DNA of 64,000 nucleotides from Roseiflexus sp. (GTDB lineage: Bacteria; Chloroflexota; Chloroflexia; Chloroflexales; Roseiflexaceae), in NCBI GenBank assembly GCA_025062325.1, contig JANXAL010000009.1, positions 62,001 through 126,000 of the forward strand, given 5' to 3'. The position numbers and the translations under genes were made by a program. Shown here one piece after another: positions 49,706-50,695 of the stretch (the first letter of the stretch is position 1; each line of letters starts with the position of its first letter). The notes beneath the pieces were generated by a model. The model saw only the letters and a list, made by a program, of their open reading frames with translations, made no database searches and was not told the DNA's origin.

Positions 49706-49769
49706 GGAGGTACGCGAACCTGCAAGGGCTCTCCCGCCATACGGGTTGACGATTCTTAACACACGCCTC

Positions 49770-49798
49770 TTGCGCCGCTCCTGTTCGCGTAGTACAAT
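49770..49798 (+). promoter_or_regulatory. Promoter of the hibernation-factor leader
   Basis: TTGCGC (49770-49775), a 17-nt spacer and TACAAT (49793-49798). The transcript would carry a leader of about 255 nt before the ATG at 50060. Confidence 0.5.
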
Positions 49799-49866
49799 GG
49801 AACAACAGCGCGCATCGATGTCAACCGCCTCTGCTTGTGACTCGTAGCCTGGAAAGGACGACAAAC

Positions 49867-49932
49867 GTGACACAGACCGTTTGCGCCCCGCACGGTTACG
49901 GAGACTCAAAAGTTGCGACTGTCGTTCGTTGA
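49867..49932 (+). CDS. 21-codon leader ORF before hpf
   Basis: GTG 49867 to TGA 49930-49932, preceded by GGAAAGGAC at about 9 nt. The peptide is unremarkable (begins MTQTVCAPHGYGDSK, ends in Arg) and has no run of one regulatory amino acid. It ends 9 nt before the terminator hairpin, the position expected of a leader peptide that couples ribosome progress to termination. Whether it is translated is unknown. Confidence 0.4.
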   Translation: MTQTVCAPHGYGDSKVATVVR

Positions 49933-49941
49933 TGACAAACG

Positions 49942-49979
49942 AAGCCCTCACCCGCCTGACTGGCGGTTGGGGGCTTTTT
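49942..49979 (+). terminator. Intrinsic terminator (possible attenuator) in the hpf leader
   Basis: AAGCCCTCACCCGCC (49942-49956) pairs with GGCGGTTGGGGGCTT (49962-49976) with one mismatch, then TTT. Two further hairpins follow: TCCGTAGC/GCTACGGA (49986-50007) and GCTCTC/GAGAGC (50023-50036). Confidence 0.65.
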
Positions 49980-50059
49980 GCATCCTCCGTAGCGCTGTTG
50001 CTACGGATCGAACGTATCGTCTGCTCTCGTGAGAGCGGGCAGTGATGCAGGAGGCCAGT

Positions 50060-50641
50060 ATGAACCTGATCGTGAACAGCCGCAATGGCAAACTCTCGGA
50101 GCGCCAGCGCCAGCACATTGAGCAAAAACTCTCGCGCCTCGACCGGTATCTCGATCGGATCGACAAAGTGACGGTTGAGCATATGGAGGAAATGCGGCGC
50201 GATGAGGGGAATGTCCATCGCGTGCAGGTGACGGTGGTCGGTGATCATGGGGTTCTGGTGCGCGCCGAGCGCCGCGCGCCGGAACTGTATGCGGCGATTG
50301 ATGAAGTCTATGACACGCTCCAGCGCCAGATCGAGCGTTACAAGGATAAACATTGGCGGCGCGGCAAGCTTCGCCGCCAGGGGGGGCAGATCGTCGAGGC
50401 TCTGCCCGACATGACCGCTGCTACATCTTCCGCTGCCGACGAGGAGGAGCAGCATCCGCGCATCGTTCGCACAAAGGAGTTCCAGGTCAAGCCAATGTAT
50501 AGCGATGAAGCCATCGAGCAGATGGAACTCCTCGGACACAGTTTCTTTATTTTCCAGGATGCTGAAACCGGAAAACTGAACGTGCTCTATCGCCGTCAGG
50601 ACGGGAACTACGGTCTGATCATCCCGGAGGTGACTGGTTGA
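50060..50641 (+). CDS. hpf: Ribosome hibernation promoting factor, long form
   Basis: 193 residues from ATG 50060, with AGGAGG upstream. The N-terminal 100 residues are the HPF/RaiA domain, a beta-alpha fold with many basic helix residues (RQRQHIEQKLSRLDRYLDR) that sits in the decoding centre. An acidic linker of about 20 residues follows. The C-terminal domain (IVRTKEFQVKPMYSDEAIEQMELLGHSFFIFQDAETGKLNVLYRRQDGNYGLI) dimerises two ribosomes into inactive 100S particles. It acts when growth slows. The structured leader with a terminator suggests that expression is gated after transcription starts. Confidence 0.95.
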   Translation: MNLIVNSRNGKLSERQRQHIEQKLSRLDRYLDRIDKVTVEHMEEMRRDEGNVHRVQVTVVGDHGVLVRAERRAPELYAAIDEVYDTLQRQIERYKDKHWRRGKLRRQGGQIVEALPDMTAATSSAADEEEQHPRIVRTKEFQVKPMYSDEAIEQMELLGHSFFIFQDAETGKLNVLYRRQDGNYGLIIPEVTG

Positions 50642-50670: not shown

Positions 50671-50695
50671 GAGGGCGGGTCTCGGACCCGCCCTC
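50671..50695. terminator. Terminator-like hairpin after hpf
   Basis: GAGGGCGGGTC (50671-50681) and GACCCGCCCTC (50685-50695), 11-bp perfect stem, 3-nt loop, no T-run. It lies between convergent genes. Confidence 0.6.

Follow-up and report, generated by a model that had tools for sequence, protein, structure and literature searches.

A conserved attenuator-like leader upstream of the hibernation promoting factor gene in Chloroflexales and its possible control by translation

The hpf gene and its upstream region

The window, a 64-kb stretch of DNA from Roseiflexus sp. (family Roseiflexaceae, order Chloroflexales; 64,000 nucleotides) to which all positions refer, carries on its plus strand an hpf gene (50060-50641, with the ATG at 50060) that encodes a protein of 193 amino acids. 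The product combines an S30AE domain (PF02482, E 2.5e-20) with an S30AE_C domain (PF16321, E 4e-29), both above the cut-offs, and is a long-form hibernation promoting factor (HPF). A strong hairpin on the 3' side of the gene (the GAGGGCGGGT-CTCG-GACCCGCCCT region, 50673-50694) lacks a U-tract; terminators of this genome may therefore not need one.

The elements found upstream of hpf all lie on the plus strand. A promoter-like pair at 49770-49798 consists of a -35 box TTGCGC (49770-49775) and a -10 box TACAAT (49793-49798) separated by a 17-nt spacer, and the counterparts of its -10 region in aligned relatives read GTAGTACAAT or GTAGTAGAAT. On the 5' side of the -35 box, the alignment reveals the block TTCTTAAC (49753-49760), a possible UP element or factor site, which is kept in six of the seven leaders of the Roseiflexus group and replaced by TCCTTAAC in the seventh. 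The promoter is followed by a leader hairpin, in which helix P1 (49843-49900; CGTAGCC at 49843-49849 with GGTTACG at 49894-49900) encloses helix P3 (49862-49883; CAAACG at 49862-49867 with CGTTTG at 49878-49883) in the region of the leader Shine-Dalgarno (SD) sequence and start codon. The hairpin is nearly invariant across the seven aligned leaders, and the SD AAAGGA (49853-49858) is identical in all of them. The leader open reading frame (ORF; 49867-49932) starts with GTG, comprises 21 codons (49867-49929; MTQTVCAPHGYGDSKVATVVR) and ends with a TGA at 49930-49932, next to a second in-frame TGA at 49933-49935.

Eight nucleotides separate the stop of the leader ORF from an intrinsic terminator (49941-49979) with a stem formed by 49941-49950/49968-49977 and 49952-49956/49962-49966 and a run of five U residues (49975-49979). 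Two further hairpins precede the gene: hairpin A (49986-50007), with 8 perfect base pairs, and hairpin B (50019-50040), with 9 base pairs including G-U pairs, which adjoins the hpf SD AGGAGG (50049-50054) read from the sequence. The terminator (-27.7 kcal/mol, z -4.5), hairpin A (-13.5 kcal/mol, z -4.3) and hairpin B (-13.6 kcal/mol, z -3.4) all fold far better than shuffled sequence. The promoter, the 21-codon ORF with its SD, the terminator and the two hairpins thus lie where the initial annotation had placed them, as read directly from the sequence. Pattern matching alone would be unconvincing, because a scan for terminator-like sites returned one against 1.4 expected in shuffles and a strict sigma-70 scan did not detect the promoter at 49770-49798. 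The case for the layout is instead made by its conservation, by the comparison with an automatic detector and by the placement of the leader stop codon.

In the Roseiflexus group, the segment TTGCATCCT (49978-49986), directly 3' of the terminator, can pair with GATGCAGG (50044-50051) on the 5' flank of the hpf SD. Such pairing would enclose hairpins A and B and is a possible second control point, acting on hpf translation.

Occurrence of the leader among Chloroflexota

An hpf gene was detected in 71 of 82 Chloroflexales genomes, and the upstream DNA was read for 68 of them. The loci compared include those of a Roseiflexaceae metagenome-assembled genome (L014), Oscillochloris sp. ZM17-4 (L051), Chloroflexales bacterium ZM16-3 (L063), Candidatus Chloroploca asiatica (L065), Herpetosiphon geysericola (L040) and H. 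giganteus (L041). Most Chloroflexales loci share the same order of parts, namely a GTAGTA(C/G)AAT promoter, an SD, a small ORF, a GC-rich hairpin and hpf; the amount of U after the hairpin varies, and a further hairpin is often present before the gene. The attenuator-like layout proposed in the initial annotation recurs in 55 curated leaders from 24 genera of the order, and relatives share its ORF, its terminator and the pairing of the stem. The U-tracts of the terminator are weak in part of one family (f4), and genomes of g3 and g8, in the window's own family, have a leaderless hpf.

A blind detector, which requires a U-tailed hairpin of -15 kcal/mol or lower on the 5' side of a gene and an ORF with an SD that is open up to the hairpin, was positive at 33 of the 68 Chloroflexales hpf loci versus 1 of 54 in other Chloroflexota (Fisher p 1.5e-9). 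The single positive among the latter sits within an upstream coding sequence. In a mixed outgroup the detector was positive at 6 of 68 loci, and among the other genes of the window at none of 42. Models of the leader hairpin built from two groups find one copy per genome, at hpf, and only weak matches at other genes (E 0.004 or worse). Judged by these comparisons, the hpf leader is a real attenuator-like element that has been kept across Chloroflexales.

Outside Chloroflexales, hpf is often preceded, by visual inspection, by a tRNA gene or by an ORF for a ComF-like phosphoribosyltransferase. Many loci from other orders of the same class (L088 and L110-L127) have a tRNA gene 5' of hpf and, by eye, no leader hairpin. 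At one locus from another class (L094), an ORF with an SD and an ATG crosses a hairpin with a U-tail and extends as far as the SD of hpf, in a layout similar to that of the Chloroflexales leader. Within the order, the hpf promoters of the Chloroflexus-like genus g16 (L029-L036) share a strongly conserved GTGAACAGTTTCTCACT block (GTGA-N8-TCAC) about 20 nt 5' of the -35 box, which looks like an operator.

Reading frame and RNA structure of the leader

The leader ORFs of the relatives typically have 12-25 codons, and the encoded peptides of different families are unrelated. Substitutions in the g16 ORFs are spread evenly over the three codon positions and are mostly non-synonymous, and codon differences in the Roseiflexus group number 43 synonymous versus 154 non-synonymous. 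A Val-Cys pair near the N-terminus occurs in most Roseiflexaceae and in two other genera, mostly where it overlaps a hairpin arm. On these alignments, the sequence of the leader peptide is not conserved. In genus g12 the frame is offset by one base between L051, L053 and L063 on the one hand and L054 and L061 on the other, and is open through the terminator in both; the peptide is evidently free to change. The ORF of the window contains no run of codons for a single amino acid, as had been noted initially, and conserved regulatory codons are likewise missing from the relatives. Amino-acid-specific attenuation was therefore rejected, as there is neither a codon run nor a conserved peptide.

The frame, by contrast with the peptide, is consistently open. 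In all 55 leaders, the start codons of which were picked by eye, the first in-frame stop lies no more than 12 nt 5' of the core stem of the terminator or further downstream. Thirty leaders have this stop 0-12 nt short of the core stem and the other 25 have it within or past the stem, with the assignment of the core stem being less certain for L001, L023 and L024. In g16, the stop touches an A-U extension of the terminator stem. Earlier stops occur in the other two frames of 33 and 16 of the 55 leaders, respectively. The start of L026 was misplaced by one base; read from the true ATG, its frame ends 4 nt short of the stem, and the conclusion is unaffected. A simple shuffle estimate gives 18 of the 24 genera open by chance and a joint probability of about 6e-4.

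Base pairing in the leader was analyzed by covariation. In family f4 (19 leaders), 17 pairs with compensatory changes are found over an upstream hairpin termed P0, helices P1-P3 in the region of the leader SD and start, and the terminator. The covariation score of this alignment is 0.222, compared with 0.163 +/- 0.010 in shuffles, none of 500 of which reaches that value. Sliding the pairing partners abolishes the signal, a control that is partly built in, since the structures were drawn from the sequences. The g16 leaders behave likewise, and three of their compensatory pairs belong to a helix that pairs the leader SD. Compensatory changes are also present in the terminator of the Roseiflexus group and, within the genus, at three pairs of hairpin A. 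The leader hairpin of the window's own group cannot be tested in this way because it is almost invariant there. The covariation of terminator and leader hairpin is higher than in 500 shuffles for two of the three alignments, and for all three when judged by the covariation score, bearing in mind that related sequences can exceed shuffles. Strong occlusion of the leader start was rejected as a general rule: across genera its z value is an unremarkable 0.47 +/- 0.29, similar to that of ordinary genes. Because start-site occlusion is not unusual overall, support for a hairpin gate is weak beyond the genera in which covariation was seen.

A structured RNA with compensatory changes, of which a block of some 60 nt is nearly invariant among Roseiflexus-group leaders, might also be expected of a leader in which a metabolite or a protein, possibly HPF, binds to P0 or P1-P3 and thereby controls termination or the translation of the leader, with the ORF contributing only part of the output. 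We consider this rather unlikely. The structure varies in sequence from family to family and shows no aptamer-like core in common, searches of Rfam with the window and with nine relatives returned no match to a described RNA family, and the element was not found at other genes.

An antiterminator was sought by two approaches. Pairing of the terminator arms with the leader sequence upstream is not better than in shuffles (mean z +0.33 and -0.07), and blind helix scans of three alignments ranked no antiterminator helix near the top. None is thus detectable in the hpf leader, which is an absence of signal and not a proof of absence. This result bears on a classical stalling attenuator, in which a slowed ribosome on the leader would expose an antiterminator, so that slow translation or starvation turns hpf on. 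Hibernation during slow translation is physiologically sensible, the leader has the translatable ORF with an SD before an intrinsic terminator that is found in attenuators of the trp/his type, and vmlR offers a precedent that combines an upstream ORF (uORF) hairpin, a terminator and an SD-sequestering hairpin (PMC9226507). Nonetheless, a trp- or vmlR-like stalling scheme would lack its key part because no mutually exclusive antiterminator was detected in the hpf leaders; regulatory codons were not seen either, and the frame enters the stem in 25 of the 55, which makes this explanation unlikely. The homologous leaders thus bear out the open ORF, the terminator and the covariation of stems that the initial annotation had proposed to look for, but not a conserved peptide or antiterminator pairing, and its interpretation is partly supported.

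Proposed control of hpf and comparison with known systems

The reading that we favour, and to which we would give an even chance, is that the leader attenuates transcription of hpf in a translation-coupled manner of the pyrBI/ampC kind, in which a translating ribosome blocks the terminator and hpf is transcribed. In all 55 leaders the frame would bring a ribosome onto the base of the terminator. The footprint of a ribosome that has reached a stop codon extends about 10 nt further downstream and prevents a stem there from closing. In E. coli, shifting an upstream stop codon closer to a terminator, from a distance of 28 bp to one of 5 bp, lowers termination from about 90% to under 10%, an effect that is abolished when translation is removed, and terminators located in the first 100 bp of an ORF are mostly not reached by the ribosome (PMC4824070).

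RNA polymerase would start shortly 3' of the -10 box and produce a leader RNA that carries the small ORF, with its start region inside the conserved hairpin. When the leader is left untranslated, the terminator hairpin would fold and hpf would not be transcribed. A ribosome at the leader stop, or entering the hairpin in some genera, would place its footprint over the base of the terminator stem and allow read-through into hpf. The position of the ribosome would be decisive and the sequence of the peptide irrelevant. Because the distance from start to stem is only about 45-75 nt, and ribosomes rarely catch up within 100 bp, the polymerase would have to pause, perhaps at P1-P3. The weak U-tracts in part of f4, the leaderless lineages and the choice of start codons by eye also weigh against this reading. 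We infer that the terminator functions in vivo, that translation of the leader is the ON state, given that the stop placement fits a ribosome keeping the stem from closing, and that ribosome availability is the signal. Ribosomes would then probably help to decide whether their own hibernation factor is made.

Since the peptide seems not to matter, the natural signal would be the ease with which ribosomes initiate on the leader. Synthesis of HPF would be favoured when they initiate readily, for instance when many are idle, and would be damped as HPF removes ribosomes. A more specific version, in which the leader start serves as a direct gauge of idle ribosomes through a gated mini-ORF indifferent to its peptide, the suppressed terminator switches HPF on and HPF closes the loop by inactivating those same ribosomes, is doubtful. 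The favoured logic, whose direction and signal we likewise infer, would be nearly the reverse of the initial proposal that slow ribosomes switch hpf on. That proposal is disfavoured because the leader stop of each relative is located at the terminator base or past it, a configuration that in E. coli allows active translation to suppress termination (PMC4824070).

A constant partial terminator, which would lower hpf expression by a fixed factor and leave it unregulated, requires nothing but a terminator 5' of the gene, and this is present. It would leave the conserved open frame, the stop placement and the leader hairpin unexplained, and we regard it as improbable. Least probable of all is the earlier suggestion that the unit from promoter to terminator is a gene for a separate small RNA, or for a small protein, located 5' of hpf by chance: it has its own promoter-like site, its own terminator and a folded RNA, but it occurs once per genome and always 5' of hpf, its peptide is not conserved, and visual inspection of the aligned leaders shows no conserved promoter between the terminator and hpf, which would therefore depend on read-through.

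Little is understood of how cells adjust the amount of hibernation factor to the number of their idle ribosomes. In the hpf leader, transcription of the hibernation factor gene appears to be coupled to translation itself, and this layout has persisted throughout an order even as the peptide changed. Control of HPF by ribosome availability thereby becomes directly testable, and the leaders provide a natural series for the tuning of termination by stop-codon position. A gauge of idle ribosomes, if real, would amount to a homeostatic sensor of ribosome abundance made from a leader ORF.

Among known systems, the ampC attenuator of E. coli has a leader ribosome-binding site by the terminator, and its occupancy by ribosomes sets read-through with growth rate. 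The hpf leader resembles it in the location of this site, but the ampC leader is a start-stop mini-ORF, whereas 12-25 codons are the rule here. The likeness extends to the pyrBI leader of E. coli (pyrL), in which an ORF also carries the ribosome to an intrinsic terminator, tight coupling across the leader prevents termination and no antiterminator is needed (PMC5021804). That system senses UTP through a U-rich pause; the hpf leader differs from it in the gene controlled and in a stop that often lies just before the stem. The vmlR leader of Bacillus subtilis shares the uORF in the first hairpin, the terminator and the hairpin at the SD of the gene, but relies on antibiotic stalling and an antiterminator (PMC9226507). 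Within the HPF family, lrtA of Synechocystis likewise has a long structured 5' leader with post-transcriptional control; this leader differs in acting on mRNA stability and translation in light versus dark, and the word 'terminator' does not occur in the main text of the report (PMC4956104). The hpf gene of Staphylococcus aureus is controlled at promoters by CodY and SigB (PMC6256015), and the Bacillus gene is induced by (p)ppGpp, as cited in PMC9226507. Only the target gene family is shared with these cases, and an attenuator in an hpf leader is described neither in PMC6256015 nor in PMC9226507. The literature searched, the coverage of which is incomplete, yielded no paper describing an attenuator of hpf. 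Judging by its sequence features, the leader is a candidate for control of hibernation by ribosome availability, in which a known type of mechanism, translation-coupled attenuation, would act on hpf, a target new in the searchable literature.
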